Shown here in pieces: positions 10,498-40,818 of a stretch of 64,000 bases of DNA (position 1 is the first letter of the stretch; each line of letters begins with the position of its first letter). The stretch comes from a virus. The stretch lies in the IMG/VR virus record IMGVR_UViG_3300028800_000086, positions 1 to 64,000 of that record, one strand, 5' to 3'. The position numbers were made by a program, and so were the translations under genes. The notes under the pieces are model-generated. The model worked only from the letters and a program-made list of their open reading frames with translations, was not told the origin of the DNA and ran no database searches.

Positions 10498-10498
10498 G

Positions 10499-20024: not shown

Positions 20025-20025
20025 G

Positions 20026-21645: not shown

Positions 21646-21663
21646 TGTCCTATGTCCCCTTGC

Positions 21664-25198: not shown

Positions 25199-25200
25199 CA

Positions 25201-25278: not shown

Positions 25279-25781
25279 CCGCGTATGCCCATCGGGAAAA
25301 GCGTGCCGCCGGTTAGGTTACCGCCCGCGCTCAACTGAATGCGGAAGCCATCGTAGGCGACTTGCGCTGGGACATCGCCTAGGTAGCCGTTAGCTAGGGT
25401 TGCGCTTGTTGCGTTGTTCTTTCGACCGCCCTCGATGTCGGCGTTTACCGGGACAAGGTTGTTGAAGTTGTTCAACGTAACCAACCAACCCGTCAAGGTA
25501 GCGGCTGGGACGACCGCCGATCCGCCAATGCTCCAGGCTGTCGTTATGCCGCCGTTTGTCGATCCGTTGCGATTGTATTGGGCGGTAATCCAGGTGTTGG
25601 AAACCAACTCGTGAAGCTGCAACGTATAAAGCTGGTCCGCACCATCGTGGGTAAAGTCGTAACCGAACAAGCTGATGGCCTGAAACGCCGACAGGTTAAG
25701 CATGGAGATGTTTGTCGTCGGCGCCGAAACAGTAATCGGATTGCCGTCGGGCGTAATGATCGGCCCAGCCTTGATTTGCAT
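25275..25781 (-). CDS. Fibre-tip-like protein, paralogue of upstream fibre C-terminus
   Basis: Protein of 168 residues; the ATG at 25781 overlaps the fibre stop (TGATG). It aligns with the last ~125 residues of the fibre just upstream: shared Y-N-R-x-G, L-x-N-F-N, G-G-x-K-N, G-Y-x-G-D/N and S-A-G-N spacing. It may be an extra tip subunit, a host-range module or a fibre chaperone. Asn/Thr/Gly-rich beta composition supports a surface structural protein. Confidence 0.6.
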   Translation of the reverse strand: MQIKAGPIITPDGNPITVSAPTTNISMLNLSAFQAISLFGYDFTHDGADQLYTLQLHELVSNTWITAQYNRNGSTNGGITTAWSIGGSAVVPAATLTGWLVTLNNFNNLVPVNADIEGGRKNNATSATLANGYLGDVPAQVAYDGFRIQLSAGGNLTGGTLFPMGIRG

Positions 25782-28700
25782 CAGATATCTCCCAACGGCA
25801 AACCCTGCACCGAGATTAAACCAGCAATGGCGTTGCCGGCACTCGGCAGGATGCAGAAAGCATTGAACACCGTATTGCCGTCGTAATATCCCGGATACAT
25901 AATGTTGTTTGGATCGTTTTTCGTGCCGCCCTTCAACCGAACTGGCGTGCGCCAAGGTTGATTGAAGTTCAACACTACTGCTTCGAAACCTATGGATACG
26001 TTGCCGGCAACGCTGCCCGAAAACAGGAGTTTGCTGGTACCTGACGTCCCACCAATCCGATTGTAGTTCGAGGTAGCAAACGTAACGCCGTTATCGGCGG
26101 AAAATTCAATACCCCAATTTTGGTTAGACAGACTGTCGTGCATCAGGCCCGTGCCCGAAATGATGAGCGTCGAGCACCAATCGAGATTACCGAAGATAAT
26201 TTTTGTCATCGGGAACGGCACGGCGTAAGCGACCTTGCCGGGCGTGATAAGCGGCCCTATTCCGCGCCCGTTGATTATGTGCGGAGCCTGAACGATATCC
26301 GCGATGACCTCGCGCGGCGCGGGCGAAATGCCGGTCGCGTCCCATATCGTGTTTAGCCCCATGTCGCGAACGACTTGCGTTACCGGCACGACAGGATCGA
26401 CGACCAGCCCGGAAATTGAAGCGAAGCTCGACAGTCCTACCGCGTCGCCGTCCGAATTGCCGAGATCGAAGGCGTACTGAAAGCGACTGTCCGGCGTGAT
26501 ATTGTTGTTGAACAACACCTTCGGGCTTATGTAGGTGTTGCCGTAGGTAGATTGATTCTGGCCGTCAGTGCGAGCGTCCATGCTGTCGCCGCCAAACGGA
26601 TCGAGGTTCGTCGCGCCCGGCGAGCCATCGGCGTTGATCGTGAAGCTGAACTGATCAACGATGCCGGTAATGCTGTACGGTCCGCCAATGTTGGGCGTAC
26701 GGATAACGATGCCATTGTTGGTGTTGATGACGTGCGACAGCCTGACGTTCGCGCCGATATGGAAGCCCGCTGGCAATCCTTCCGAAGCACTGACGAGAAC
26801 CTGAATGCCGCCGAGTTGTTGCGGCTCCAGGCCGTCGACGTTAAGCGAGACGGCGTCCTGTTGCTGGGCACCGTTATCGACAAAGCCCTTGATAATCGGG
26901 TTGATCGCGAAGTTGCCAGAGAGAGTGCCGTAACGACCTTGGTTCAGGTAGCAGACATCGAAACCCGTAACGGTATTCCCGGCGACGTAGAACCCGGTCG
27001 CCTCCGCGCCGATGTTGATTGCCTTTCCTCCTACTCGATTGAGCGAGGTAAACGTATTGTTAACGACGCGCCCACCAATCGACAAAAGCGTCGCGCCGCC
27101 ACGGCACTTCGCCGTCGAGTCAGCAAGCGTGCCGATCCATGCGGGCGAGGTATCAACGAACGAACAACCACTGATGACGCAGTACTCGCCGCCGACCTGC
27201 GCATTGGATAGGCCGGAACCTACGCGCTGATAGTAACCGTTGCGTTTGTTGGCCCAACCTTCCGCCGCGCAGTTGGTCGCGCGGAAGTTAAGACCGCGCA
27301 TGTCGATGATACGGTCGCCCACCGATATCCCGGCGTTGAACACCGAGACGGCGGAACCGCCGCCGTTGCCACTTGCGTTGGCCGTCTGCCCATTTAGATC
27401 GAACTTCAACTGGCCGTCTTCGTCGGTCACGCCCAGGATGTTGAACGATCCGTTGAACGTACAACCGTTGAAGCCGGGCGTGCCGATAAAGCTAATGCGT
27501 TCGCCCGCGCCCGCGTTAAGCAGCGGCTTCTGGTAGGTCGGGCTGACCGGAGTCAGGACGTTGATGTTTATCGAAGCGTAGGTCTTGCCTGAGTAGGTGC
27601 GGATAGGATTGGTGCCGTTCGTTCCGGTCGTCGTGCCGCCCGTGATCGAGTTGATGGTCAGGCCCGTCGCTATCGCGTAAGTGATCGTATCAATCCCGGG
27701 CTTCGACGCTACGGTAAAGGTGCCGTCCGCTGACGCCAGATCGCTGCCCGTTCCGGTAAGCGCCGATACGACGATAACGTCGCCCGTCGCGAAAGTATTC
27801 GTTGCGGTCGTCTTCAAGGTAACGACGCCGGTCGTGCTGTTATAGCTGGAGCCGGTCGACTTAACCGCGAACACCGCGTTAACCAGCGGGCAATAGTAGT
27901 CCGTGCCCGTGCTGCGCGCCCCGTTCCGGTTATTCCACGACAGGTTCGTGCCCTGCCCACCCAACGCCCAATACTTGAACGTCATGTCGGTGTTGTAGAT
28001 CGTCGTGTTCGATGACAGGCGGTTCTTAACGTCCTCGCAATCGCCGTCCGTTCCCCAATGGCCGCCGCCGCTCCAATAGATCATATTCTTGGAGTTGTAG
28101 CCGCCTAGGCTCGCGCCGTAACCCGGCGAGCCGAAATTGTAAACGTCGATCAGCTTGACCAGCGACAACGGGACGTTGGTGTCGGTATCTCCTCCAAGAT
28201 CGATGTTGTGGAAACCGTGCTGATAACCGGAGCGACTGCGGTTGCCGTGGAGGCACATTCCGCGAATAGTGACGGATACGACGTTGGGGTAGTTTGGCGA
28301 AGCCCCCGCTGCACCGTTCGAAATCATGTGAGCGACGCCGTTCGACCCGTCCGGGCTTGCGCCCGTCTGATCGACCTTGTCCGCTAGGAATATCCAACTA
28401 TTGGAACTTCCGCCGCCGTCGAACTCGACGCAACCCGGGACGCGAAGGATGGCTGTCTTCTGGTACTTGCCGCCCGGGGGCAACAGCATGACCGTCGTGC
28501 CGCCCGCCGTAAAGCCGTAAGAAAGCAGTCGATTGATTTCCGCCGCCGCGTCGAAGATCGTCCCGATCTGGTACGCGTGACCGATGACGAATATCGATCC
28601 GTCGTCGACCCAAGGACAATCGTTCAGAACCCAAGTAAACGGGTCAGGTCCCGCCGAGACGTTCGACCAGTCCCCGTCCGCTCGATGAGCACCGTACGTC

Positions 28701-29575
28701 GTCCCGTTGATGCCCAAGTCACATCGTACGGCCAAATTTGTCGGCGCAATCTTGGCCTTTTGTCGGAAGCGAACCGCCGTCAATCCACCGACGTTGAGGA
28801 TGTCGCGAACCTGATACGACTGCGTCGAGACGATTGGTAGCGTCTGCTTATAACTGCCATCGGCGTAGTAGGCGACCGCCGCACCGACCGCCGCGCCGGT
28901 GAAGTTGGCCAGCGCGCCCCACAGGTACGACGGGTTTACCGCGCTTTCGGTATCGTCATGGGCTACGTCGGGCGGCGCAGGCGCAAGACCCTGTAACAAC
29001 AGGATCGAGCCATTCCACTTTAGTTCCGCAATGGCTCCCGTGATCAGTTCGTTGCCGATAAGGGGCGAGCCGTCGCGCCGCCTTATCGGTACGTCAACAC
29101 CCCATCCGTTGAACGTCGAAGGTCCGGAGTTGTCTTCCGGTATCTTAAAAGAGACGGTCAGTCCCGGTTCTGGCGCAACGATCGTCGGGTTGTAGACCGC
29201 CGTGTATTCGTTCGCGTTTGTCGCCGTCGCCTCGGCATAACTGTAGGCCTGGTTCTGCGCCTCTACCGTTTGCGGGAAGCGCGCCATCGTGCCAGCGGTG
29301 ACCAGCTGTTCGAAGCCCGATCCTTCAGGCCAGTTCTGCGCGATCGTTCCTTCCTGGGCGCGAACGATAGTCAGCGTGTCGCCGTCGCGCGCCGTCACCA
29401 GGACGATTTCATTAAGCGGACCGAGCGCCAACGTGCCGTAAAATTCCGAACTTACTCCCGGTTGCGGAAACAACGCGCCTTGGCCCAGGCTCAAAATGAG
29501 CGTGGTACCGTCCGTCTCCAGAAGATCGGCGGTTTCCGCGACGGCGTTGTTGGCGAATTGAAGAAGCTTCGTCAT
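25781..29575 (-). CDS. Large tail fibre/tailspike with parallel beta-helix
   Basis: Protein of 1264 residues; the ATG at 29575 overlaps the previous stop (ATGA). Residues 1-200 are the virion anchor shared with the fibre at 4425-5924. Around residues 340-420 a beta-helix begins (G-F-T-A-G-G-T-T-V-M-L-L-P-P-G-G, then I-R-G-M-C-L-H-G-N), typical of depolymerase-type tailspikes. Around 570-650 lies the beta cassette shared with the cement protein. The last ~125 residues resemble the next gene product. Likely recognises or digests a surface polysaccharide. Confidence 0.78.
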   Translation of the reverse strand: MTKLLQFANNAVAETADLLETDGTTLILSLGQGALFPQPGVSSEFYGTLALGPLNEIVLVTARDGDTLTIVRAQEGTIAQNWPEGSGFEQLVTAGTMARFPQTVEAQNQAYSYAEATATNANEYTAVYNPTIVAPEPGLTVSFKIPEDNSGPSTFNGWGVDVPIRRRDGSPLIGNELITGAIAELKWNGSILLLQGLAPAPPDVAHDDTESAVNPSYLWGALANFTGAAVGAAVAYYADGSYKQTLPIVSTQSYQVRDILNVGGLTAVRFRQKAKIAPTNLAVRCDLGINGTTYGAHRADGDWSNVSAGPDPFTWVLNDCPWVDDGSIFVIGHAYQIGTIFDAAAEINRLLSYGFTAGGTTVMLLPPGGKYQKTAILRVPGCVEFDGGGSSNSWIFLADKVDQTGASPDGSNGVAHMISNGAAGASPNYPNVVSVTIRGMCLHGNRSRSGYQHGFHNIDLGGDTDTNVPLSLVKLIDVYNFGSPGYGASLGGYNSKNMIYWSGGGHWGTDGDCEDVKNRLSSNTTIYNTDMTFKYWALGGQGTNLSWNNRNGARSTGTDYYCPLVNAVFAVKSTGSSYNSTTGVVTLKTTATNTFATGDVIVVSALTGTGSDLASADGTFTVASKPGIDTITYAIATGLTINSITGGTTTGTNGTNPIRTYSGKTYASININVLTPVSPTYQKPLLNAGAGERISFIGTPGFNGCTFNGSFNILGVTDEDGQLKFDLNGQTANASGNGGGSAVSVFNAGISVGDRIIDMRGLNFRATNCAAEGWANKRNGYYQRVGSGLSNAQVGGEYCVISGCSFVDTSPAWIGTLADSTAKCRGGATLLSIGGRVVNNTFTSLNRVGGKAINIGAEATGFYVAGNTVTGFDVCYLNQGRYGTLSGNFAINPIIKGFVDNGAQQQDAVSLNVDGLEPQQLGGIQVLVSASEGLPAGFHIGANVRLSHVINTNNGIVIRTPNIGGPYSITGIVDQFSFTINADGSPGATNLDPFGGDSMDARTDGQNQSTYGNTYISPKVLFNNNITPDSRFQYAFDLGNSDGDAVGLSSFASISGLVVDPVVPVTQVVRDMGLNTIWDATGISPAPREVIADIVQAPHIINGRGIGPLITPGKVAYAVPFPMTKIIFGNLDWCSTLIISGTGLMHDSLSNQNWGIEFSADNGVTFATSNYNRIGGTSGTSKLLFSGSVAGNVSIGFEAVVLNFNQPWRTPVRLKGGTKNDPNNIMYPGYYDGNTVFNAFCILPSAGNAIAGLISVQGLPLGDI
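27630..27875 (-). repeat. Beta-domain cassette, copy in the tail fibre gene
   Basis: Second copy of the cassette at 21808-22062. The encoded protein keeps S-T-G-S-S-Y-N-S, G-V-V-T-L-K-T-T, V-I-V-V-S-A-L-T-G-T-G and T-Y-A-I-A-T-G-L-T-I. Confidence 0.7.
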
Positions 29576-31392
29576 CCGCGACATCCGACGCGAAAGTTGC
29601 CTGCCGCGAAGGTGCTGGCGCTGGGCGCGAACCGGATAGCATTCACCTGCGCTGCGGGGGCGAACATGACCGTGCGCGGTCCAGCGGTCGAGACGTTTGG
29701 GGTCGAATTGGGATTGCCCGTCGTGCTTTCGCCGCCGAATGCTCTTACATATCCGCCGCGCAATCCGGTGATCCACTCGGTCAGGTAAACGGCCGACGTC
29801 GTCAGCGCCGAAGCCGTTACGTTGATGCGCGAAGCGCTGGTGTAAGTACTCCCGTTGTTGGTCGAAAAGAGGATGTTCAGATCGGCAGTGCTGGTCGTGA
29901 TCGTGACGCCATCGACGTAAATCAGCACGTCTTCGCAAGACAAACTGGTGAAGGAAACCGTCGAACCTGACGCTGCAGAACTCGACCAGACATAGCTCGC
30001 TTGGTTCCCGGTCAGACCAGCAATGGGCAGGCCGGTCGCGTTGGTAAGCGTGAGCGAAGAAGGAGTGCCGCCCGCCCCGTTGAACAGCACCGGAGCGCCA
30101 GCCGATCCGACGTTGACGCCGAGCGCCGTGGCGATGCCAGTGCCCAGGCCCGTAATCGAGCCAACCGCGGGCGTTACCGTGACATTGGCCGCGGCTGTGA
30201 TCAACCCCTTGGCGTTGACCGTGAACGTGCTCGCCTGAGTCGCGGAGCCGAATGAACCTACATTGCTATTGACCGTCGCCAGCGTCGTGCCAAGAGCGCC
30301 CGCGCTGGTCGTAACGTCGCCCGTCAACGCGGGAAACTGTCCCGCTTGTAGTGTGCCCGTCAATCCGGTCGTCGGAATTCCGGTAAGATTGGTGCCTATG
30401 CCGGACGACGGCGTGCCGAGCGCGCCCCCATTCACTACGAACGACCCCGCCGTGCCGACGTTGACCGCAAGCGCCGTAGCGACGCCTGTTCCGAAACCCG
30501 TAACGCCGGAAAGCGGAACCGCGGCAGCAGTAATCGAGCTATTGCAGCCGAACCCAGTATTGGTCGTCCAATTTAAGGCGCTCCCGGCGACGCTACAGGA
30601 CGCCATCGCCAACGCGGTCGGGGATGCCGCGCCGGAAGTAGCATTACCAACGACCGTATTAGCGGCTTCGGTAGCCAATCCTGAAAGCGGCAGTGAAGAA
30701 CCGTTCGTCAACGCAATTGACGACGGCGTGCCGCCCGCGCCATCGAAAATAACCGGAGCGCCCGCCACACCGACGTTAGTCGCGAGCGCGGTGGCAACGC
30801 CCGTACCGAACCCGCTGATGCCCGCAATAGGAAGACTGTTGCCGTTGGTCAAGTTGACCGCAGACGGCGTTCCCAAATTCGGCGTCGTTGTACTCTTGAG
30901 CAACTTGCCGGTCGTTCCGTCGAACGTCGCGACGAGGTTATCGGTCGATGACGCCGGGCCGACTACGTCGCCTGAGCTTGATGGAATGCTGTGACAGAGA
31001 AAGCCTGTGCCCGAAGTCCAGCCCAGCGCGTCGAGCGTGCCGCTGCAGGAGGGAACCGCGAGCGCTTGAGGCGTCGTGCTGCCCGCCGTCCCATTACCCA
31101 TCAACGTGTTCGCGGCGATCGACGCCATCGATGAGAGATTAAGATTGCCGGCGAGGACGACCGCGCCCGTTGTCGGCGTGTTGGGAGTAAATCCTGTCGA
31201 GCCGCCCGACCACGTAGTAACCGCGCCCGCAAGGCAAGGCGCGTCGGTCAACGTACTACTGCCAATCTTGAGGCAATGACCGTTTGTACCGCCGATGACC
31301 GCTGTGCCGTTAACGTAAAGAGCGTTTTGCGCGTCGACCGGAAGTCCGATCAGGCACGCGATGACGATGAAAAGGGTGGAAAAGAAACGCAT
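29572..31392 (-). CDS. Repetitive tail fibre protein with signal-peptide-like start
   Basis: Protein of 606 residues. It starts with a classical export signal (R-F-F-S-T-L-F-I-V-I-A-C-L-I-G-L-P-V-D-A). The body carries about five imperfect repeats built on G-T-G-V-A-T-A-L-A-x-N-V-G-x-A-G and G-T-P-S-S-x-x-L-T-N, known from many phage fibre proteins. The C-terminal ~150 residues are a non-repetitive beta domain ending F-R-V-G-C-R-G. A signal peptide on a virion fibre is odd; the hydrophobic start could instead aid assembly. Confidence 0.65.
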   Translation of the reverse strand: MRFFSTLFIVIACLIGLPVDAQNALYVNGTAVIGGTNGHCLKIGSSTLTDAPCLAGAVTTWSGGSTGFTPNTPTTGAVVLAGNLNLSSMASIAANTLMGNGTAGSTTPQALAVPSCSGTLDALGWTSGTGFLCHSIPSSSGDVVGPASSTDNLVATFDGTTGKLLKSTTTPNLGTPSAVNLTNGNSLPIAGISGFGTGVATALATNVGVAGAPVIFDGAGGTPSSIALTNGSSLPLSGLATEAANTVVGNATSGAASPTALAMASCSVAGSALNWTTNTGFGCNSSITAAAVPLSGVTGFGTGVATALAVNVGTAGSFVVNGGALGTPSSGIGTNLTGIPTTGLTGTLQAGQFPALTGDVTTSAGALGTTLATVNSNVGSFGSATQASTFTVNAKGLITAAANVTVTPAVGSITGLGTGIATALGVNVGSAGAPVLFNGAGGTPSSLTLTNATGLPIAGLTGNQASYVWSSSAASGSTVSFTSLSCEDVLIYVDGVTITTSTADLNILFSTNNGSTYTSASRINVTASALTTSAVYLTEWITGLRGGYVRAFGGESTTGNPNSTPNVSTAGPRTVMFAPAAQVNAIRFAPSASTFAAGNFRVGCRG

Positions 31393-31395
31393 CGA

Positions 31396-32712
31396 TCAGG
31401 CCGGTGTAAACGTGACGGTCTGAACGGGCGACGTATCGGTCGGGATGACGAAACCGCCCGTCACGGTCTGCGCCGTCAAGTCTGTTTCGCCGCTGACGCG
31501 AACAATTGCGATGTCATAGACGCCGTCAGGAACGTCAATGGTGCAGATGTCTTCGGCGCGCGTCGCCTGCGTCAGATCGGTCGAGCGAATGTAGCTGCTG
31601 AGATCGCCTGCCTCGATCTGGATGCCGTAAAGCAGGCCGTCCCAGCTGAAGTTAGGAGCAAAGTTCGCCTTGTACCCGTCGTTCGAAAAGAACGGGGGAT
31701 CAGTCGACGGAGGAGGGTTCCAACCCGTGGCGGGAATTCCCATTGTAACGAGGACTTGCGGCGTGGGCATCGTCGCACTGACAACCAAACCTTCGATAAC
31801 GCAGCGAAACCACCCTGGGCTGCTTGGATTGCCGGGAGGATTGTAAGGGCCTGAGATGGTAGAACTGTCGAACCCCGCTTGGCTGGTCGAGCCGCTATCC
31901 GCCGTTGTGCCCGCCTGAACGTCGAAGATCGCCGTTAAGCCCACGCCGTCATCGTTATTGAAGTTGACGATTAGGGCCGGATAGCCGCCGCTGCTGTGGT
32001 ATTTGCCGAAGATGCTGAGCGTGTAGTTGATATCTCTTTCCGGCGTGACGGGATTGGGAGGATCGATGGCTGATCCAAACATTTGATAAACGCCATAGAC
32101 AGCAGGATCGGAAGCGAACGTGTAGATTTGTGTTGCGCTGTCCGTGTTGTCCGGTCCTTGGGGGTTGTCAGAGGCAGGGAAACCCACTGATGTTCCGCTC
32201 AAGGCTTGCCAGCCTCGGTTCGTCGCGCCACTGGCAGCGAAATCCTGCGTCGATACCGCAATGTTGGTGCGCGCGGGCTCAACGAGAAGGCCCAAGATAT
32301 CGTGGGACACCGGATCGCAGGTAAATCTGGCTGTGTCGTTCGATGCAAATTGCAACACGGCGCTGTTGTCGACGTAGCTTCCTTCGGAAGCGCGCGTCAG
32401 CCCGGCCCCTCCGGGCAATGTGCCGAGAGTGAAATCGAACGTAAGGACGTGAGGATAAGAGGCGCTGAAAAAACCGACCGCGTCGCCGGGCGCACTCGTT
32501 ACGTTACGAACGCAAAGGGGCAGAACGGTCGACGGAGCGACGTTACTAAACGTCACAGGGCTATCGTCGCCCGCCAAGGTGACGACAAACTCGCCGCCCG
32601 CACCCGACCAGATATAACGCGTCAGGCGTTTCAGATCGCCGGTCGGGAGCGTCAGCCCGTGTGTCGCGGGACCGGGTCCTACTGTCGCGGCGGGAGGAAT
32701 AAAACCGGGCAT
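31396..32712 (-). CDS. Tail protein with lectin-like carbohydrate-binding region
   Basis: Protein of 438 residues; the ATG at 32712 follows the previous stop by one base. The first ~85 residues repeat the fold of the adjacent 86-residue gene (S/G-P-G-P-A-x-H-G, L-T-R-x-I, L-A-G-D-D-x-P-V-T). Then comes L-T-R-A-S-E-G-S-Y-V-D, A-R-F and G-L-L-V-E-P-A-R-T-N, a pattern common in tail proteins with a concanavalin-like binding module. The remainder is beta-rich. Probably a receptor-binding or fibre-connecting protein. Confidence 0.62.
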   Translation of the reverse strand: MPGFIPPAATVGPGPATHGLTLPTGDLKRLTRYIWSGAGGEFVVTLAGDDSPVTFSNVAPSTVLPLCVRNVTSAPGDAVGFFSASYPHVLTFDFTLGTLPGGAGLTRASEGSYVDNSAVLQFASNDTARFTCDPVSHDILGLLVEPARTNIAVSTQDFAASGATNRGWQALSGTSVGFPASDNPQGPDNTDSATQIYTFASDPAVYGVYQMFGSAIDPPNPVTPERDINYTLSIFGKYHSSGGYPALIVNFNNDDGVGLTAIFDVQAGTTADSGSTSQAGFDSSTISGPYNPPGNPSSPGWFRCVIEGLVVSATMPTPQVLVTMGIPATGWNPPPSTDPPFFSNDGYKANFAPNFSWDGLLYGIQIEAGDLSSYIRSTDLTQATRAEDICTIDVPDGVYDIAIVRVSGETDLTAQTVTGGFVIPTDTSPVQTVTFTPA

Positions 32713-32713
32713 C

Positions 32714-32974
32714 TTACCAAAGCCCCACAAGAGCACTCGCGCTCGACGCCGTCATGACGCGCCGCGCACAAACTTCAATGAAGTTTCCCTGTAGCGCAGG
32801 AAGCGTGACAGGGTCGTCGTCGCCCGCAAGGATGACGACGAGATTGCCTGACGAACCGACGTAGATCATCCGCGTCAGATGCGGCAAGTCATTAGCGTCA
32901 TCCGGCGTGATAGAGAAGCCGTGCGCGGCAGGACCAGGCGATACCGATGCAGCGGGAGGCTTGAAATACGTCAT
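32714..32974 (-). CDS. Stand-alone copy of the fibre N-terminal domain
   Basis: Protein of 86 residues homologous to residues 1-85 of the next protein (31396-32712). Shared: S-P-G-P-A-A-H-G, L-T-R-M-I, V-V-I-L-A-G-D-D-D-P-V-T and C-A-R-R-V. It may be a small virion adaptor on which fibres sit, or a truncated duplicate. It overlaps its upstream neighbour by ATGA. Confidence 0.5.
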   Translation of the reverse strand: MTYFKPPAASVSPGPAAHGFSITPDDANDLPHLTRMIYVGSSGNLVVILAGDDDPVTLPALQGNFIEVCARRVMTASSASALVGLW

Positions 32975-33312
32975 ACGGTAATCCCCAATGGCGGAAGACG
33001 AAGCGGAGCGCGATGCGGCTGGCCCGTACCGCGCATCAACAATGCCTTATCGACGACCTGGACGCGAGGCGTTGCGTCGTTACGTTGCGGCCGCGGCTTA
33101 CGACGCTCGACCGCGAGAACTTCACGACGCTTACGCTGCAGCGACTTGTAATGCTCGACGCCTTCGCAACCCAGCACGTAATAGATGGCGGCGCGAGACG
33201 AACCGTATTCCGTCGCCATCGTCGAAATGATTTCCGATCTCGCCGCGCGCGTCTCGGCCGCCTTCCAGCGCGCCGCGATCGTGATGTAATCGGTTTTCGG
33301 TATCTTGTTCAT
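32971..33312 (-). CDS. Putative DNA-binding protein (HTH-like)
   Basis: Protein of 113 residues; the ATG at 33312 overlaps the previous stop (ATGA). Residues ~25-50 look like a helix-turn-helix (I-I-S-T-M-A-T-E-Y-G-S-S-R-A-A-I-Y-Y-V-L). The C-terminal half is basic and Pro/Arg-rich, suited to nucleic acid binding. Finding such a gene in the middle of a structural operon is unusual. Confidence 0.45.
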   Translation of the reverse strand: MNKIPKTDYITIAARWKAAETRAARSEIISTMATEYGSSRAAIYYVLGCEGVEHYKSLQRKRREVLAVERRKPRPQRNDATPRVQVVDKALLMRGTGQPHRAPLRLPPLGITV

Positions 33313-33515
33313 CGCAGGAGATGGCCGCTCGTCAGCGCCGGGCCGATCATGCGCCAGACCAGCAAAATGCAAACGAGCGCGACGACGACCCACAGTATCT
33401 TGATCACCTGGGCGGGGAGCGGAACGCCGATCTGATTGAGGACCCAGATGATAAGGAACCCGACCGCGACGGCAAGACAAATGTAGATAAGTAAAACGAT
33501 GATCGCTTCGAACAT
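33309..33515 (-). CDS. Small two-TM membrane protein
   Basis: Protein of 68 residues with two hydrophobic helices (A-I-I-V-L-L-I-Y-I-C-L-A-V-A-V-G-F-L and I-L-W-V-V-V-A-L-V-C-I-L-L-V-W) split by a Pro-containing loop (G-V-P-L-P-A-Q). Similar small proteins are common in large phages and are sometimes called holin-like, but it is 30 kb from the lysis block. AGGAGAG precedes the ATG. Confidence 0.5.
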   Translation of the reverse strand: MFEAIIVLLIYICLAVAVGFLIIWVLNQIGVPLPAQVIKILWVVVALVCILLVWRMIGPALTSGHLLR

Positions 33516-33516
33516 G

Positions 33517-34332
33517 TTATGCTCTCCTCTTCATGGCTTCGCGACCCGCCGCGGTAAGCATTTCCTTCGGCAGGTCGTCGATCGAATAGATGTATTGATA
33601 GTAGCACCGGCAATAGACTTCTTCGCCGGGCTGAGTAATCTGATCCGTGTACTGGTGACCGTCGAGCTTGATCAGTCCCTTCTGCATTGCCCAGTTATCG
33701 CGAACCACGTACAGGTCCTTGTCGCGCTCCTTGTGGTCTTCGCGGTAATCGTAATTCGCCTGCCGCCAGTGACTGTGCCAGATAGCGGCGATCGCCCCGC
33801 CGCCCACCGCGACAACGTCGTTGAGCGTCGAGGTAAGCTTGATGCCCTGATCGGTCATCACCCGGCGTTCCCGGAACGACAATCCCGATAGCGACTTGCG
33901 GATGTCGACCTTCGCCGCCTTCTTGTCCGTCGCCTCGCTGCCTCCGGGCGGCACTGAAGTCGCCCAACCGTAGAACCGGCGAACCATCGCCGTCATCTCC
34001 TGATCGCGATTGAGCCGAATCAGTCCGATGCTCGCCATGATGCGGCGGTCTAGCTCCGCTTTCAATTCCGGGCGAAGGCGGTCGATCGTATAGCGATTGA
34101 CTCCCTTGTGCATCGAGACGATACCGCCGCGCTCGATCAGCCGCCGATACAAGGCCGTCAACCCCTCGCGCAACATCTTCTCCATCCGATCTCGCGGCAT
34201 CATGTCGGCTTCGGCCGCCCGGCGCAAACGCTCGCTCCACATCTCGACGCGTTCGTTGCTGTCGAAACCGTTTTCAGCCAAGTCGTCGATCGCGGCTTGC
34301 AGCACGGCGTAGAAGGAAGCTGTGTTGGGCAT
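33517..34332 (-). CDS. Minor head protein, MuF-like
   Basis: Protein of 271 residues downstream of the portal gene. The helical N-terminal half ends in S-L-S-G-L-S-F-R-E-R-R. The C-terminal part has the MuF/head morphogenesis pattern: Y-R-E-D-H-K-E-R-D-K-D-L-Y-V-V-R-D-N-W-A, then E-E-V-Y-C-R-C-Y-Y-Q-Y. Such proteins sit at the portal vertex and can be ejected with DNA. Start after TAG of the previous gene. Confidence 0.72.
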   Translation of the reverse strand: MPNTASFYAVLQAAIDDLAENGFDSNERVEMWSERLRRAAEADMMPRDRMEKMLREGLTALYRRLIERGGIVSMHKGVNRYTIDRLRPELKAELDRRIMASIGLIRLNRDQEMTAMVRRFYGWATSVPPGGSEATDKKAAKVDIRKSLSGLSFRERRVMTDQGIKLTSTLNDVVAVGGGAIAAIWHSHWRQANYDYREDHKERDKDLYVVRDNWAMQKGLIKLDGHQYTDQITQPGEEVYCRCYYQYIYSIDDLPKEMLTAAGREAMKRRA

Positions 34333-35133
34333 CTATTCCATCGCCCGAAGCGTCTTCAAGTCTTCTTCGGTAACGACGCCGATGCCCTTGCTTTCGAGCC
34401 AAGACGCCTGTCGATCCATTTCGATGGCTTCCTTTATCGAAAATTCATTAACGTATAATCCTTTGTCTTTGGCTCTGCTCACAGACGCCATGTTCCCTCT
34501 GGCGGCGGCGCGAAGTTGCGCGGCGAGTTGCTTGTAGGTTTTGCCGGCCGATACCGATACGTCCGCGCGCCACCCGACATCCGACCGGGCGACCCGTTGT
34601 CCCAGGTCGTTGATCGCTTCCACGAGCGCGCTGAAGGTCGCGGGGATATCGTCGGCGCGGCCTGCCGTTTTTTTCGCTTCCTCGACAACTTTGATAGCCG
34701 TAGCTTGGGCACGCGTTAATCCGAGACTTTCCGCCATAGTGAAAAACCAAGAGTGGCCCGCGTTCGCCATCACTTGGTTTATGATGTACGGACTAGAATT
34801 GGCGTGGAAGGCAATTTGCCATTTCGTCGGGTCAGCCGCGTCTAAACGAGAATTCGCGGACTCAAATCGCGCGAGAATATCGTCGGCGCGCTTTCGAACG
34901 TACGATGACCCCAGGCGTTCGCGATCGCGCATGTGATCGACGACCTTCTGAAATTCATCCCAATAGGCTTGAAGCTTGCGCGATAGCGGATCGGATTTCG
35001 TCCTGGTCTCATTCGGCCTTTCCGTGCCGCGGCCTGTATTGATCATCTCGTCGAGAAGCGGTCGACCTTTCGAAAGCAACTTTTCGTAGTGCGCCTTCAA
35101 TGCGTTGTCGCTTAGGTTTCGAAGATCAACCAT
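34333..35133 (-). CDS. Unknown helical head-block protein
   Basis: Protein of 266 residues, mostly alpha-helical and charged (L-L-S-K-G-R-P-L-L-D-E-M, Y-W-D-E-F-Q-K-V-V-D-H-M-R). No motif recognised. It overlaps the small gene upstream by 8 bases and directly precedes the MuF-like gene, so a head or ejection role is plausible. Lys/Arg-rich C-terminus. Confidence 0.45.
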   Translation of the reverse strand: MVDLRNLSDNALKAHYEKLLSKGRPLLDEMINTGRGTERPNETRTKSDPLSRKLQAYWDEFQKVVDHMRDRERLGSSYVRKRADDILARFESANSRLDAADPTKWQIAFHANSSPYIINQVMANAGHSWFFTMAESLGLTRAQATAIKVVEEAKKTAGRADDIPATFSALVEAINDLGQRVARSDVGWRADVSVSAGKTYKQLAAQLRAAARGNMASVSRAKDKGLYVNEFSIKEAIEMDRQASWLESKGIGVVTEEDLKTLRAME

Positions 35134-35332
35134 CGCGCGCCATCCTATGCATCGTCGCTACGTGATCGAAGAACGCATCCAGCGCATCCTTCGCCTTGAC
35201 GCGCTCTATCTCGCTGCGCGCCCATTGACCGGAAACGCACGCCGCCTGAAAGCCGACTAAGGCGCTATCGAGCATCGAGCGCGCCGTGTGGGCGCTGCGA
35301 ATAACGGCGATCGCGTCGGTGGCGAAGGTCAC
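35126..35332 (-). CDS. Small helical protein after portal
   Basis: Protein of 68 residues. GTG start at 35332 overlaps the portal stop (TAGTG). Helical with S-M-L-D-S-A-L-V-G-F-Q-A-A and F-F-D-H-V-A-T-M. No family recognised. Confidence 0.45.
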   Translation of the reverse strand: MTFATDAIAVIRSAHTARSMLDSALVGFQAACVSGQWARSEIERVKAKDALDAFFDHVATMHRMARDG

Positions 35333-36906
35333 TACGCGCGCTTCCTTCCGTCGATCACCCGCAGCCGCCGATCCTCCTTGATGCCGCGGAGACGGGAGAC
35401 GGCGGCTTGTAGCGCCTCAATGCCCTTCTCGACGCTGTCGGCCTTCGACAACTTGAACTTGTCCGCGCCCGTCTCCGGATCGTCGCTTTCGTCGCCGCCC
35501 ATCGCGCCTAGCTCCTGGCGATCCTTGTCGGCCTGGGCGTTCTCGCGCATCAAGTCGTAATCGAAGTGCAGCGGCGAGCCGAACAGCAGGCGCATCTCGT
35601 TGATGTTGTCCGCGACGAACTGCGCGAGCGTGACTAGGTTCTCCGGGTCCATCAGCGGCGTGTAGACCTGAAGCACGGCGATCAACGCCCTTAGCTTCAC
35701 GTCGTCGACCTTGACCTTTTCGCTGTCCGGCTCCTCAAGCAGGTTCGGCCATTCGGCCTTGAAGCTGTTAGACCAACGATAGAACGCCGCGTCAAAATCG
35801 ATCTTGCCGTACTCGGCCTTGAACTCGGTCTTGATCGTCTCATAGAATTCCGGTGTCCAGGCGAGATGTTGGACGATCGTTGTGAAGTATTCGTAAAGCG
35901 GCTCCATCCATTCGCGGATATCCGCGACGAACCGCGCCTGCGCCTTCGCGTCCTCAGTGCCTTCCCCGAAACCCTCCACAAAGCTTTCTTCGGTCAGCAT
36001 CTGCGCCGGCATTGACGCGCCGCTCGCGATGTTCTCGATGATATCGTCGCGCGCCTGCTTGAACGGCGCTTCAAGGTTCTGCAGGTTGATGCTTTCGATC
36101 TCCTCGCCGTCAGTGCCGATCGAAATGACGTTGCCGACGACCGCTTCCTTGACGACGTTCCGCTTCATCCCGAACATCGTGATCATCGCCTCAGTGATCA
36201 TCGCCCCGGCCTGCTTGATCTTCGCGACCAGCGTGCCGGCCTTAATCGATACCATATCGTCCGTCCGCATTGTCTGGATAAACGACTTGAGCGGATAGAG
36301 CGGACGCTGATAGACCGATCGGCCGGTGAAGCCGAACGTTGACGGCGTGTAACTGATGTAGATCGGGAATTCGTTGATCAGTATGCAGGTCCTTGACCGA
36401 TGGAACGTCTTACCGTTGACGACGATCTCCTGGGCGTGCTGGAAGTCCATCGCTAGCGGGTCCTGGTTCAGCACCAGCGAACCCGCGGTGTTCAACGGAT
36501 CGTAGACGTTGAAGGCGTACTTCTTCTTCCAAAGCTCCTTGAGCTTGAGCGCGGTATTCGGCTGTTCCCCTTCGACCAGCGTGCCGATCGACGCGATGCC
36601 GTAGACGCGAGCCTGGGAGGCAACGCGGAAAATGTGCTTGTCTGCGCCGATTAGCTTCCAGGTCTTGACGAACTGCTCCTTGACGCGATCGCCGGGCGAT
36701 TCAGGGATGGTAATCTTGCGAGGCTGGCTCTGGGCGATCTTCAACGGCTTCTCGGCCATCTTCGCGCCGAGCGGATGATACAGATAGAGCAGCTTGCAGA
36801 TTTCGTAGCTCGGGTCATCGCCCGGCTGGATATCGGCCGCGCCGATGATCGTGGTGAAGGCGTTACCGATCGATGAAGCGCCGACAAGGTTGAGCGTTGC
36901 GGTCAT
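35332..36906 (-). CDS. Portal protein (DUF1073/PF06381 type)
   Basis: Protein of 524 residues two genes after the large terminase. Matches the DUF1073 portal class: a start with Y-H-P-L-G-A-K-M near residue 43, A-R-V-Y-G-I-A-S-I-G in the clip/stem part, and I-A-S-G-A-S-M-P-A-Q-M-L-T in the C-terminal third. The tail is Glu/Asp-rich then basic. The dodecameric portal is the DNA gate of the head. ATGA overlap with the preceding small gene. Confidence 0.85.
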   Translation of the reverse strand: MTATLNLVGASSIGNAFTTIIGAADIQPGDDPSYEICKLLYLYHPLGAKMAEKPLKIAQSQPRKITIPESPGDRVKEQFVKTWKLIGADKHIFRVASQARVYGIASIGTLVEGEQPNTALKLKELWKKKYAFNVYDPLNTAGSLVLNQDPLAMDFQHAQEIVVNGKTFHRSRTCILINEFPIYISYTPSTFGFTGRSVYQRPLYPLKSFIQTMRTDDMVSIKAGTLVAKIKQAGAMITEAMITMFGMKRNVVKEAVVGNVISIGTDGEEIESINLQNLEAPFKQARDDIIENIASGASMPAQMLTEESFVEGFGEGTEDAKAQARFVADIREWMEPLYEYFTTIVQHLAWTPEFYETIKTEFKAEYGKIDFDAAFYRWSNSFKAEWPNLLEEPDSEKVKVDDVKLRALIAVLQVYTPLMDPENLVTLAQFVADNINEMRLLFGSPLHFDYDLMRENAQADKDRQELGAMGGDESDDPETGADKFKLSKADSVEKGIEALQAAVSRLRGIKEDRRLRVIDGRKRA

Positions 36907-37106
36907 CGGCTTCCGATCTTCGCCTTGCGGCGACGCTCGCGACGGTTACGCGGCGGGTCGCGTTCCTCGGTTGCGATCGTCGCGCAATTGCCCCAGCCAG
37001 CCGTCGTCGTCGCAATGACCGTCGCAATGACCGTCGCATTGCCGTATTCGAAACCGCCAAAGCGATTGCCGTCGATCGACGGCGTCGTCCTCGGTTGCGG
37101 AACCAT
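36903..37106 (-). CDS. Small basic protein with TVIA repeats
   Basis: Protein of 67 residues; TGATG start at 37106. The centre is a T-V-I-A-T-V-I-A repeat from a 12-base unit (37009-37040). The end is strongly basic (P-P-R-N-R-R-E-R-R-R-K-A-K). No family recognised. Coupled to portal by ATGA. Confidence 0.4.
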   Translation of the reverse strand: MVPQPRTTPSIDGNRFGGFEYGNATVIATVIATTTAGWGNCATIATEERDPPRNRRERRRKAKIGSR

Positions 37107-37297
37107 CACGCCTCACCCATAACCGGCTCGTTGAACATCGCGTTAGCTCCCATCACCATCGCCATATCCTCCAACGGTACGTGCTCGCAAAAGCCGAGCG
37201 ATCGCCGGTCACGCAGCTTCAGGCGATCGACCATCGACGCCAGCATCTCCGGGCTGATGTAAAAGCGGAAGCCGTTGCTATACGTCGCGACGCGCAT
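37106..37297 (-). CDS. Small protein after large terminase
   Basis: Protein of 63 residues, TAATG overlap with the terminase gene. Features: S-N-G-F-R-F-Y-I-S-P-E-M-L and a Met-rich end (D-M-A-M-V-M-G-A-N-A-M). No family recognised. Confidence 0.45.
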   Translation of the reverse strand: MRVATYSNGFRFYISPEMLASMVDRLKLRDRRSLGFCEHVPLEDMAMVMGANAMFNEPVMGEA

Positions 37298-38910
37298 TAT
37301 TTGCCGTCCTTGTCTCCGAACATCACCGCCGCCCCGTAGCAGAACGTATCAAACAGTTCGTCTTCGTCGTGCGGCGTGCCGTGGCCAACGCGGAACGTCG
37401 TAACCTGATCCAGCAGATGGTTCTTCAACCGGCCTTTGTAGACTAGCGTCTTGTCGAACGCGGCCTGCGTAATCTTCAATAGCTTCCGGTTGATGTAGCC
37501 AGAGACGGATACCGCGCGACCTTCCTTGCCCATCGCGACTAGATCGCCGGTCAACGGCTTCATCTTACCGGGCCACTTGGTGCGACCTTTCTGCAGCAAT
37601 ATCTGGCCGCTGTCCTTGTCCTCGATATAGACGGCGGCGAAGCCCGATCGGCTATGGCATTCGCGCGCTAGCTCCTCGCCGCGCTTCAGGACGTTGGGGA
37701 AATCAATTTCTAGGAACTGGGCTTCGATCTGCTTCAGGTCCCAGTCGAGAATGAAGCCGTGAGGCTTCGGATGCATATTGAAACCGAAGTACGTCACGCC
37801 CGTCCCGTCGTTCTTCTTCCCCGTCTTCGTCGCGCTATCGATCACCGCGAACACGGCGTCGAGACGTTCGGGCTTGGGCGCGGGTTCGTACGTGCTTTCG
37901 CCGTTCGCTGTCTTCTTCTCGACCATGATCTGGGACCGGGAGAAGAAGTACGCGCCGTCACGCGCCCGCGGTTGTTGCTGGTACTGGGTCGCCCAGCCGT
38001 GCTCCATCACCTCAATTTTCTTTTCTTCGACGTTCGCCCGTCCCATGAACGCGGGATGTAGCAATTCGCCTTCTTCGGTCCGCGGATCGGTAAACCAAGG
38101 TGTCTTGACCGATAGGCTGCGAACGTACTCCATCGGTAGGATCAGCTTAACGTAGGGCAGCGCCGCCTGCTCGATGACGCCGCAAAGATCGTCGGGGTTG
38201 AGCCGCTGCATCACTACGATGATCGCGTCGCGCTCCTGATCGTTCAATCGGCTCGATGCCGACTCGCGAAACATTCTTGTCGCCTTAGCGCGCTCCAATT
38301 CGCTTTCCGCGCCTTCCGTGCTGTGCGGATCGTCGATCATCAACCGATTGCCGCGACCCGCCGTCAGTCGCTTGAAGGGGACGGCCTTGCGTCCGCCTTT
38401 CATCGTGTTCTCGAAATCGTCTTCCGCGAACTTCGTCAGCGTGATGTCGGGCCACAACGTCTGGTACCACTCGCTCTGCACCAGATCGCGATGCTTCCGG
38501 CTATCTCGCCGCGCATAGCTCGCTTCGTACGAAGTCGAGAAGTACCGCAACCAGGCTTCCGTCGTCCACTCCCACGCGGGAAACATCACTGATATCGTCG
38601 TCGACTTCATCATGCCCGGAGGCATATTGCAGAGAAACCTCGTGATCTGGCGTTTCTTAATCGCCTCTAGGTGCTCCCCGATCGCGTCGATATGCCAGTT
38701 GGGGAGATACTTGATGCCCGGCTCTGGAATATGCCAGGCGTTCTTAACGAAGCCGGTAAACCGCTCGCATTCCTTCCGTACCGCATCGGCGTCTTCCGCG
38801 ACGCGCCTCATATGCGCCGCTCGCTCGCGACGCTTCGTCAACTCCGCTTCGATCATCGACTTGACGCGGATCGCGTTGAGCCGCGCCGTCTCGGTGAGGA
38901 CTAAGGTCAA
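37297..38910 (-). CDS. Terminase large subunit
   Basis: Protein of 537 residues if started at the TTG (38910) that overlaps the previous stop as TTGA; AAGG lies 8 bases upstream. ATPase: N-M-P-P-G-M-M-K-S-T (Walker A) and R-L-M-I-D-D-P-H-S (Walker B). Nuclease: A-V-I-D-S-A, V-Y-I-E-D-K-D-S-G-Q and D-E-L-F-D-T-F-C-Y-G give the acidic RNase H-type triad. The coupling motif region is normal. It cuts concatemers and drives packaging with the portal. Confidence 0.9.
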   Translation of the reverse strand: MTLVLTETARLNAIRVKSMIEAELTKRRERAAHMRRVAEDADAVRKECERFTGFVKNAWHIPEPGIKYLPNWHIDAIGEHLEAIKKRQITRFLCNMPPGMMKSTTISVMFPAWEWTTEAWLRYFSTSYEASYARRDSRKHRDLVQSEWYQTLWPDITLTKFAEDDFENTMKGGRKAVPFKRLTAGRGNRLMIDDPHSTEGAESELERAKATRMFRESASSRLNDQERDAIIVVMQRLNPDDLCGVIEQAALPYVKLILPMEYVRSLSVKTPWFTDPRTEEGELLHPAFMGRANVEEKKIEVMEHGWATQYQQQPRARDGAYFFSRSQIMVEKKTANGESTYEPAPKPERLDAVFAVIDSATKTGKKNDGTGVTYFGFNMHPKPHGFILDWDLKQIEAQFLEIDFPNVLKRGEELARECHSRSGFAAVYIEDKDSGQILLQKGRTKWPGKMKPLTGDLVAMGKEGRAVSVSGYINRKLLKITQAAFDKTLVYKGRLKNHLLDQVTTFRVGHGTPHDEDELFDTFCYGAAVMFGDKDGK

Positions 38911-39119
38911 TGGACGACCTTGCTTTTCGGAACGTCGAGACGATAACCGTCGCTCATCATGTCCTTTACGATCCGGCGACAACGCGCCTTCCCCACGTCG
39001 ACCTGCTTCGCGATCTGATCGTATGAAACGCCGTACGTTCTCAACACGAATATCTTCACGTCGCGATCGGACGGCAACGGCTTGCCGCGAGGAATGTTGA
39101 ATATAAGTCGATCAGTCAT
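38907..39119 (-). CDS. Small HTH protein, terminase-associated
   Basis: Protein of 70 residues between putative small and large terminase genes, overlapping both. A helix-turn-helix is visible: Y-G-V-S-Y-D-Q-I-A-K-Q-V-D-V-G-K-A-R-C. It might contribute DNA recognition in packaging or be a regulator. No family name is safe. Confidence 0.5.
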   Translation of the reverse strand: MTDRLIFNIPRGKPLPSDRDVKIFVLRTYGVSYDQIAKQVDVGKARCRRIVKDMMSDGYRLDVPKSKVVH

Positions 39120-39576
39120 TCTCGATCTGCCGCGGTATCGAATAGCTTCCGTCCGGTCCCTTCGCCGCTTCTAGGACGCCTGTGATGCGACCGAGTGCCG
39201 CAAGCAACTGCTCCTCTGACATCGCGCCGAAATCGAGCGCCGTGCCGTCAGGGTTCGCGTGAACGTTAATCGGGTTGCCCCAAGCGCGCTTGAGCAGCAT
39301 GTCGGCCGCCGCGAGACGAACCATTGGAGTGTTATTCGTGTTGTGCATGATCACAGCCGCGGTCGCGATCGATTGCCGAGTGAAGCGACGCGCCAACATC
39401 TTCACATCTAGCTCGGTCGACGTTTTCATAGCGTGCGCCATCCACGACGCGCCGCCATTCGGATTTCCGCTCTGGCCGGGCTTCCATGTAGTGCCGTTGC
39501 GCTTCGAATTCGGAGAAGCCATTGCCTTACGTTCCTTGTAAAGGGCAATCATCTCCTTCCTCGATTTACGCGCCAT
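39112..39576 (-). CDS. Putative terminase small subunit (DUF5681-like)
   Basis: Protein of 154 residues. It starts basic, then T-W-K-P-G-Q-S-G-N-P-N-G, the hallmark of DUF5681 proteins, which often sit before large terminase genes. The middle is helical (A-A-V-I-M-H-N-T-N-N-T-P). The position two genes before the large terminase supports a packaging role; whether it or the HTH neighbour is the true small subunit is open. Confidence 0.6.
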   Translation of the reverse strand: MARKSRKEMIALYKERKAMASPNSKRNGTTWKPGQSGNPNGGASWMAHAMKTSTELDVKMLARRFTRQSIATAAVIMHNTNNTPMVRLAAADMLLKRAWGNPINVHANPDGTALDFGAMSEEQLLAALGRITGVLEAAKGPDGSYSIPRQIEND

Positions 39577-39594
39577 CAGATGCCTGCTCTGGAC

Positions 39595-40221
39595 CTAAGT
39601 GATTGAGACAATTTCGACGTCATCAGATTTCGTAGGCACAATCATCAGCCGCCCCAACATCTTCCCTAAAACGACATCGATCCGCTCGCGATCGGAGAAT
39701 TGCACCCGGCCTTCGCGCCCGGCGAATAGTCCGCTCGATATTCGAACCTTTGCGCCGACCGGGACGAAGCGCGCTAACGCGTCATCAACCTCCTCGGCGT
39801 CTACAATTCCGTCTCGGCTACAACGCCCCAGAAGGATCGCCATAACCTCATCACTTATCCGCGTCGGGCATTCCGGGCCGGTAGAAAGAAGTCGCTGAAC
39901 GCCCGGCTGATCATTGATGTATCGCCAGGGCGTTTCCTCCACGTCGAAGTTCACGAAGATATAGCCGCAGATATACTGACGCTCGTGTATCACTTTTCGG
40001 CCGCGCTGTATTCGCGTAACTCGGTATCGAGGATTGAATGGCTGGATGCCGCGAAGGCGTCCTAGATAGGCTTCCGCAGTCAACTCGGCGCGAGGCTCCG
40101 TTGTAGCGACGTACCAACGTGTAGCTATGATCGTTCTCCCCGAACGGTCCCCGCGTACCGCTGGTTTCCCGCGGCATGCCGAGAGAGTTTGCCTAGAGTT
40201 CGATGCCCGAATCAAGCGCAA
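39595..40221 (-). CDS. NusG/RfaH-like transcription elongation factor
   Basis: Up to 208 residues from a TTG at 40221. The NGN domain covers ~35-115 (R-W-Y-V-A-T-T-E-P-R-A-E, then Y-I-C-G-Y-I-F-V-N-F-D and P-G-V-Q-R-L-L-S). The KOW domain covers ~150-178 (G-A-K-V-R-I-S-S-G-L-F-A-G-R-E-G). It is the first gene of the late operon. Start is uncertain: the best ribosome site (GGGGAGA, 40135-40141) lies just before ATC/ATA codons at 40126-40131, immediately ahead of the NGN domain, with no ATG. Host NusG binds the RNA polymerase clamp; a phage copy could direct antitermination. Confidence 0.8.
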   Translation of the reverse strand: MRLIRASNSRQTLSACRGKPAVRGDRSGRTIIATRWYVATTEPRAELTAEAYLGRLRGIQPFNPRYRVTRIQRGRKVIHERQYICGYIFVNFDVEETPWRYINDQPGVQRLLSTGPECPTRISDEVMAILLGRCSRDGIVDAEEVDDALARFVPVGAKVRISSGLFAGREGRVQFSDRERIDVVLGKMLGRLMIVPTKSDDVEIVSIT

Positions 40222-40319
40222 TAATCGAGAACACGTTTTAGCCGCCCGTCGCCGGTTACCAACGGTCCTTCGGGTCCCACGCTTTCTATTGTAAATCGCT
40301 TTTTCTCGTATCTATTTGA

Positions 40320-40347
40320 TTTATAACGATACTCAGTGTTATTTGAA
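40320..40347 (-). promoter_or_regulatory. Candidate minus-strand promoter of the late operon
   Basis: On the minus strand: TTCAAA (40342-40347), 16 bases, TATAAA (40320-40325). It resembles a sigma70 promoter and overlaps the first operator palindrome. It would start RNA near 40312, about 90 bases before the NusG-like gene. Confidence 0.45.
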
Positions 40348-40351
40348 CACT
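40335..40351. promoter_or_regulatory. Operator-like palindrome, copy 1
   Basis: AGTGT-N7-ACACT, extended to AGTGTT/AACACT. The sequence TTGATTTATA lies 9 bases upstream, as in copy 2. It overlaps the candidate -35 box. Confidence 0.55.
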
Positions 40352-40404
40352 CTTATTCTTCTTTCTCATATTCTAATGGCTTTTATTGATTTATAGGCCG
40401 CGCT

Positions 40405-40421
40405 AGTGTTCGTTTTACACT
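40405..40421. promoter_or_regulatory. Operator-like palindrome, copy 2
   Basis: AGTGT-N7-ACACT, exactly 70 bases from copy 1 and again preceded by TTGATTTATA with 9 bases between. The two copies look like a tandem duplication of one regulatory unit. Confidence 0.55.
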
Positions 40422-40438
40422 GCGTATCTTTATCTTTC

Positions 40439-40463
40439 AAAGACTTAACGTCTTTTTCCTTTT
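40439..40463 (+). terminator. Hairpin with T-run upstream of early genes
   Basis: AAAGAC / GTCTTT stem with loop TTAAC followed by T-rich sequence. It could be an attenuator in the leader of the early transcript or stop readthrough; the stem is short. Confidence 0.4.
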
Positions 40464-40605
40464 CTATAAGGAAAGCGTAGGACCGAAGGACCGAAGGGTA
40501 TCGAAAAGACTTCCCCGCGGCGAGAACGCGCGGCCCGGTTTTCGTTGGGCACGTTTCTTCGTTAAGCTCCGTCTCCCTTCGCGCGGCATCGAGGAGCATC
40601 GCAGT

Positions 40606-40818
40606 ATGGAAAAGACGCAGCAAGACAGCGCCTTAGAACGCGTCTACAAGCTGAAAGAGCTACCGCAATTTGTCGGACTGCGGGCGACGGCGATCCATCG
40701 CATGATCCGGGACGGCGAATTCCCGAAGCCGATCCGCATCACAAAGGACCGCCGCGCGATCGGCTGGCTGGAGAGCGACCTGCGGCAGTGGCAGCAAGCC
40801 CGGGCGGCTGCGCGATGA
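40606..40818 (+). CDS. AlpA-like DNA-binding regulator
   Basis: Protein of 70 residues, a compact winged helix-turn-helix of the AlpA/excisionase type: L-K-E-L-P-Q-F-V-G-L-R-A-T-A-I-H-R-M-I, then G-E-F-P-K-P-I-R and I-G-W-L-E-S-D-L-R-Q-W. First gene of the early region; GAGGAGC lies 9 bases before the ATG. It is a good candidate for binding the neighbouring operators. Confidence 0.75.
   Translation: MEKTQQDSALERVYKLKELPQFVGLRATAIHRMIRDGEFPKPIRITKDRRAIGWLESDLRQWQQARAAAR

Follow-up and report, generated by a model that had tools for sequence, protein, structure and literature searches.

A NusG/RfaH-type gene at the head of the late operon of a tailed phage, with a probable AUA start codon

The DNA analysed here (the window) is a stretch of 64 kb out of a 69,872-base IMG/VR virus record, and it comes from a tailed phage with a genome of roughly 70 kb or larger. 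A gene for a NusG/RfaH-like protein (nusG) opens a minus-strand late block that extends from 40128 down to 1951 (38.2 kb). It is followed, all on the minus strand, by a gene resembling that of the terminase small subunit (terS), a 70-aa HTH-like ORF, the genes for the terminase large subunit (terL), the portal and head morphogenesis, and a match to a major head protein; further on lie sheath, tape-measure/endolysin-type, baseplate and fibre genes (Table 1). The upstream neighbour is divergent, in accord with the sequence-only reading, which had placed nusG at the front of a 38-kb operon on the minus strand. The over 50 genes attributed to this operon proved too many: a simple gene finder called 40 minus-strand genes from 1951 to 39552, nusG not among them, and with nusG and a few small ORFs the total is about 41–45. 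The strong palindrome reported in the operon is present at 14225–14250, is perfect and spans 26 bp (TCCTGCGAGGTAT/ATACCTCGCAGGA). It is located between the stop of one gene (14263) and the probable start (14193) of the late gene that follows, and could form an intercistronic RNA hairpin; it lies 26 kb from nusG, and nothing connects the two. The TTG start of terL (38910) sits at the end of the 70-aa HTH-like ORF (38907–39119), which suggests translational coupling.

Table 1. Features of the nusG locus and the late block (window coordinates)
Feature	Position	Strand	Evidence
Late block: nusG, packaging, head, tail sheath, baseplate, fibre	1951..40128	-	Gene finder, PHROGs
Portal protein	35332..36906	-	phrog_146 3.4e-49
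Terminase large subunit, TTG start aligned with L003 ATG	37297..38910	-	phrog_38 6.9e-55
70-aa HTH-like ORF	38907..39119	-	Weak PF13412, under cut-off; overlaps terS end and terL start
Terminase small-subunit-like gene (start 39576 or 39552)	39112..39576	-	Weak PHROG_15261 and DUF5681; precedes terL
NusG/RfaH-like gene, 177 codons from ATA plus stop	39595..40128	-	PF02357, PHROG_6386, AlphaFold2, Foldseek
ATA, most likely start codon	40126..40128	-	L003 ATG alignment; best in-frame Shine-Dalgarno energy
Leader/divergent promoter region, intergenic, AT-rich in part	40129..40605	-	
Small hairpin CGTTC-GGGGA-GAACG, Shine-Dalgarno in loop	40132..40146	-	5 perfect Watson-Crick pairs
Shine-Dalgarno GGGGAG, 7 nt before ATA	40136..40141	-	Duplex energy -8.1
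GCGGTA, partial ops-like core, about 33 nt before ATA	40156..40161	-	Only such piece in window leader
Alternative in-frame TTGs 40221, 40215, judged non-start	40213..40221	-	No Shine-Dalgarno pairing; low upstream codon score
Divergent AlpA-family regulator, next upstream of nusG	40606..40818	+	PF05930 1.7e-11

Counted from the ATA at 40128, the NusG-like protein has 177 residues. The frame at 39595–40221 (minus strand) matched the NGN domain (PF02357, E = 1.1e-14, 55.2 bits against a gathering score of 22.2), and PHROG_6386, ‘transcription antiterminator’, matched residues 33–194 of the 208-codon frame (5.3e-16). The KOW match scored under the Pfam cut-off (15.8 versus 22.3 bits), whereas an AlphaFold2 model built from an alignment of ten sequences, and representing one state only, placed a five-strand beta KOW barrel C-terminal to the NGN domain (mean pLDDT 88.1, pTM 0.68). 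Of the two domains that had been called clear, NGN is therefore confirmed by its profile and KOW is seen as a modelled barrel, not by Pfam score. With a beta KOW domain, this one modelled state gives no indication of RfaH-type autoinhibition. Foldseek aligned NusG and RfaH chains over the whole length.

Against NCBIfam, the window protein missed the cut-offs of RfaH (TIGR01955, 59.6 bits, equivalog cut-off 144.5), UpxY (NF033644, 59.3 bits, cut-off 100), housekeeping NusG (TIGR00922, 46.8 bits, equivalog cut-off 135.7) and LoaP (NF033641, 38.3 bits, cut-off 125). When ten aligned proteins were compared, TIGR01955 matched 10/10 with the lowest E-value among the listed families (7.8e-24); NusG, UpxY, LoaP and PRK09014 likewise matched 10/10. 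The best solved structure by sequence for the relative L024 (loci found in our searches carry L numbers) was RfaH (1.1e-10, versus 1.5e-06 for NusG), and for the window protein alone NusG chains ranked first. The protein is a specialised NusG paralogue of RfaH/UpxY-like character that falls into no named equivalog. The codon usage of nusG (40128–39598) is atypical for the phage (score -0.07 per codon; GC3 0.59 versus 0.74 for genes), as would fit a gene acquired recently or expressed at a low level.

We examined the gene order around terL in other viruses. A terL profile search gave 54 viral loci. Where terL identity was 50% or higher and the sequence reached 1200 nt or more beyond the upstream side of the terL match, a nusG-like gene was located just upstream in 13/13 loci (from 9 distinct phages). 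Four more loci at this identity had too little upstream sequence, one of them with a partial nusG. The arrangement occurred in 2/7 loci at 40–50% identity and in 0/17 below 40%. A nusG profile search added L078, L084, L088 and L089; in these and in L008 a nusG-like gene is placed ahead of TerL of PHROG families 2, 15 and 5989, with other reading frames in between in L088. Among isolates, phi3LM21, Yong-L2-223 and vB_MweS-yong2 carry a similar gene before terS, with one gene in between in phi3LM21 and with the order running across the record ends in vB_MweS-yong2; in Ssp-JY38 a similar gene is likewise placed and its neighbours are annotated as hypothetical. Thus, nusG at the late-operon head is conserved in this terminase clade and recurs before other terminase families. 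Family membership, fold and this gene order together give good support to a phage factor of NusG/RfaH type at the front of the late operon. A nusG search with the single window protein against viral contigs and blastn among phages found nothing, and two scans of GTDB genomes gave no close relative. Hits to MW495066, OR850013, OR844998, Salmonella, Acinetobacter and uncultured records in the phage collection were not counted as phage evidence; these records were cellular-looking or unannotated. Two further observations concern individual loci: the L008 terminase large subunit (L008:5023-7101) has, from its translation only, an apparent intein-like insertion (CVDPATPVLTDDLRWVD...AAGYASHNS), and L011 (L011:3803-4552) and L012 encode a NusG-like protein with an N-terminal extension and a zinc-ribbon-like Cys pattern.

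As first noted, the NGN start has no ATG, GTG or TTG, and the in-frame TTGs at 40221 and 40215 lie 31 and 29 codons upstream. The claim that the only good ribosome site precedes ATC/ATA codons also held, with Shine-Dalgarno energies of -6.9 kcal/mol at ATC 40131 and -8.1 kcal/mol at ATA 40128, against +0.6 and +0.3 kcal/mol at the TTGs 40221 and 40215. A start at either TTG, which would add an N-terminal extension of 29–31 residues, is highly improbable. TTG can serve as a start codon, the frame stays open as far as 40311, and L008 too has an upstream TTG with moderate Shine-Dalgarno pairing (-4.5). Against such a start, both window TTGs are without pairing, the 31 codons at 40221–40129 have a lower codon score than every 31-codon window within nusG, relatives have no conserved extension, and NGN proteins begin a few residues ahead of the Trp. 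Translational coupling through a TAG stop overlapping the ATA was considered and rejected because the upstream frame has no start codon.

In both protein and DNA alignments, the window ATA falls on the ATG of L003, the nearest relative by terL (62%; IATRWYV versus MADTWHV). Among 12 distinct close relatives including the window, the start codon was ATG in 9, TTG in one (L084), probably CTG in one (L008) and ATA in one (the window). Before this count, L029, L030 and L035 (nusG same as in L028), L022 (near-identical to L021), L026 (partial gene) and repeats of one contig under other locus ids were dropped; the distant or cellular-looking L007, L010–L014, L031, L044, L047, L088 and L089 and the isolate phages were kept outside it. 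In L008, CTG TTA TCT TGG aligned on ATG TTC GCT TGG of a group of relatives beginning MFAWHV, and the CTG stands 6 nt after GGGGGA, whereas the upstream TTG pairs more weakly with the anti-Shine-Dalgarno (-4.5); from these alignments, the CTG (L008:3992) is the likely start rather than the TTG. The three non-AUG starts (window, L008 and L084) do not cluster together on a poorly resolved tree.

These comparisons indicate that nusG translation probably begins at AUA 40128 and that the output of the NusG-like protein is probably low. An AUA start would imply weak translation. CUG accounts for 0.024% of bacterial starts and gives 0.86% of the output of AUG, according to PMC11497404, and the AUA starts of S. 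aureus infC, ccpN and citZ, which have an extended Shine-Dalgarno, reach roughly 10–30% of AUG where measured, as reported in PMC13009471. The AUA claim depends on a single base of a metagenomic contig, and that base may be an error of assembly or sequencing. In a somewhat unlikely alternative, the protein and its role are the same and the true start is AUG, with the A at 40126 being such an error or a minority variant; initiation would then be ordinary, even strong. The ATA differs from the ATG of the homologues by a single G-to-A change, the Shine-Dalgarno and its spacing fit a good ordinary start, the record is an IMG/VR contig, and 9/12 close relatives have ATG. Against this alternative, CTG in L008 and TTG in L084 occupy the homologous codon, so non-AUG starts recur among nusG relatives, and the gene finder gave ATG, GTG or TTG starts for 84 other genes, which favours a good assembly. 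The earlier proposal of weak or non-canonical initiation thus gains support from the homologues (ATA on ATG in L003, CTG in L008), while ‘deliberately’ weak initiation is, from the sequence, inseparable from a single-base error or a recent mutation. Weakness of the start would follow from the identity of the codon, and selection for weakness would be a further step beyond it.

The Shine-Dalgarno energy at the ATA (-8.1 kcal/mol) was matched by 1.6% of random sites, compared with a median of -6.4 at 84 gene starts of the window phage; the same energy is reached at the two codons that follow, GCT and ACA, neither of which resembles a start. A comparison with other genes by longest-ORF starts was discarded because this comparator was too noisy, with medians near random. 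Across the relatives, the energies were -8.1, -8.6 and -8.6 at the three non-AUG starts (the first being the window) and -3.7, -3.0, 0.0, -2.1, -4.3, -8.6, -4.0, -1.0 and -2.2 at the nine ATG starts. Non-AUG starts in general require a strong Shine-Dalgarno, and the L008 CTG was chosen partly for its Shine-Dalgarno, so that a strong Shine-Dalgarno with non-AUG starts is suggestive only as a family pattern. At the three non-AUG starts the Shine-Dalgarno lies in the loop of stems of 5, 5 and 4 bp with differing stem sequences; among 84 window gene starts, 2% have a stem of at least 5 bp and 18% one of at least 4 bp, a comparison made post hoc. The window hairpin occurs in the minimum-energy fold and is not more stable than shuffles (z -0.93), the L008 stem is absent from its minimum-energy fold, and the fold z-scores at the three starts are ordinary (-0.93, 0.14 and 0.41).

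A search of the leader for an ops-like recruitment element, suggested in the sequence-only reading, turned up no significant element: as a 12-nt match in 200-nt leaders against dinucleotide shuffles, the window's best was 7 of 12 (p 1.0), and the sum over 20 leaders was 156 versus 153.4 ± 3.0 (p 0.24). A part of the ops consensus, GCGGTAGC, was found in 3/20 leaders (L003, L084 and L088; about 0.1 expected) and not in the window, by a count made post hoc. The leader at 40129–40605 contained no 9-of-12 sigma-70 match and no Rfam match, and its fold at 40110–40320 was not unusual (z 0.07). Promoter-like sites (9 over the two strands, 2 of them on the minus strand) were at or below the numbers in shuffles, and terminator-like sites in the late block showed no excess over shuffles. 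The hexamer GGGCGG, present at -119 in the window, -75 in L003 and about -99 in L008, was rejected as a 6-mer expected by chance in three 400-nt leaders, and it is missing in L016.

Other leaders of the family have features of their own. Those of L016, L025, L033, L024 and L021 share a conserved CCT-N6-AGG hairpin shortly before the ATG, of which the window leader has no copy with one mismatch allowed, and a conserved TTGAC promoter-like hexamer about 130–215 nt before the ATG. In L016, L025, L033 and L024, a strong Shine-Dalgarno is followed by an ATG and a stop after 0 to 3 further codons, forming minimal upstream ORFs (ATG TGA, ATG TAG, MRGS stop and MGP stop) about 100 nt before the nusG ATG; no start-stop upstream ORF with a strong Shine-Dalgarno was present in the window.

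We propose, with a probability of roughly 0.6, that the protein is an RfaH-like processivity factor for its own late operon that is loaded in cis and kept scarce by weak AUA initiation. The polymerase would leave the late promoter and transcribe the leader, and the first protein made would bind the same polymerase, with the NGN domain on the clamp helices and the KOW domain towards ribosomal protein S10. The polymerase would then be kept free of pausing, Rho and host NusG across 38 kb. Translation would start at AUA 40128, led by GGGGAG seven bases upstream; the factor would act mainly in cis, and its low output would keep it off host transcription complexes. Polymerase binding, processivity, cis action and a selective reason for weak initiation are what we infer from the data above. 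As outlined in PMC6391919, NusG paralogues whose genes lie within or close to their own operons may be recruited in cis, and off-target RfaH recruitment would be harmful. The present nusG-like gene does lie within or beside a long operon, as the first gene of the 38-kb block with 13/13 synteny. This position and weak initiation fit the cis proposal because few molecules would be made, and made beside the target polymerase. For the earlier suggestion of a phage NusG for processive antitermination, family, fold and synteny support the phage NusG, and antitermination itself we infer; counting against it in the window are the lack of a significant ops match, of a terminator surplus, of an Rfam match and of an unusual leader fold.

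That the searches found no cis element in the window would also suit action in trans, as would the genome-wide action possible for NusG-family proteins: the protein might be a general host-takeover or termination factor (a NusG substitute or a Rho/NusG antagonist) that does not serve its own operon. We consider this quite unlikely, since the conserved place of the gene is the head of the late/packaging block and not an early block, and a paralogue encoded within or next to an operon is regarded as acting on that operon, according to PMC6391919 and PMC7819879. Returning to the cis-loaded processivity factor, a broader version would extend it to the phage lineage, whose RfaH-type first late gene would be rationed at translation and act in cis without a fixed DNA recruitment site. 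Some members would ration it through AUA, CUG or UUG starts, with a strong Shine-Dalgarno presented in a small hairpin's loop, and others through AUG with next to no Shine-Dalgarno. Being scarce, the factor would work in cis, on the very polymerase that is transcribing its gene. This extension is tentative and, in our view, rather unlikely. By analogy with LoaP, which binds a leader hairpin, the NusG-like protein might itself bind the Shine-Dalgarno hairpin, for autoregulation or loading.

The protein family is already known, and its occurrence in this phage context, with non-AUG starts that recur among relatives, represents a variant; the conserved phage NusG paralogue at the late-operon head is real, and its AUA start is probable. 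Among the papers listed by full-text searches of the open-access literature, a body without subscription papers and preprints, none had a title or abstract opening on a phage NusG heading a late operon. How a specialised NusG paralogue is targeted to one operon and leaves the others undisturbed has been worked out closely for few cases, chiefly RfaH (ops, autoinhibition) and LoaP (leader hairpin). With a phage factor that heads its own late operon, and whose weak and non-standard initiation recurs in relatives, ‘cis loading by low supply’ becomes directly testable. Late-gene processivity would be provided by the phage's own NusG-family protein instead of an N-, Q- or p7-type factor.

Among known systems, RfaH (TIGR01955; PDB 2oug, 8phk) shares the NGN and KOW domains, has 162 aa compared with 177 aa in the window, ranks first or close to first among NCBIfam matches to the aligned phage proteins, and serves one or a few long operons, which we count as a likeness. 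RfaH is a stand-alone gene, whereas the window factor is encoded in the operon that it heads; furthermore, the window has no significant ops, and its KOW domain is modelled as a beta barrel and not as an alpha hairpin. The UpxY and LoaP paralogues (NF033644, NF033641) are, according to PMC7819879, encoded beside a long target operon like the window gene, but the window protein is under both cut-offs and its putative target is a phage late operon. In PHROG_6386, phi3LM21 and two Synechococcus phages also carry similar proteins before terminase genes; these isolates have only about 30% identity to the window protein and use AUG starts. The S. aureus genes infC, ccpN, citZ and cvfC1 (AUA/AUU), as described in PMC13009471, combine a non-standard start with a strong, close Shine-Dalgarno as in the window; they are host genes with experimentally mapped starts, whereas the window start is placed by homology. 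Finally, lambda N (PMC7819879), lambda Q, Xp10 p7 (PMC4513864) and similar antiterminators are phage factors that make the host polymerase processive, and these proteins are unrelated to the window factor. Lambda N works with the host NusG, whereas the window phage brings a NusG-family protein of its own.
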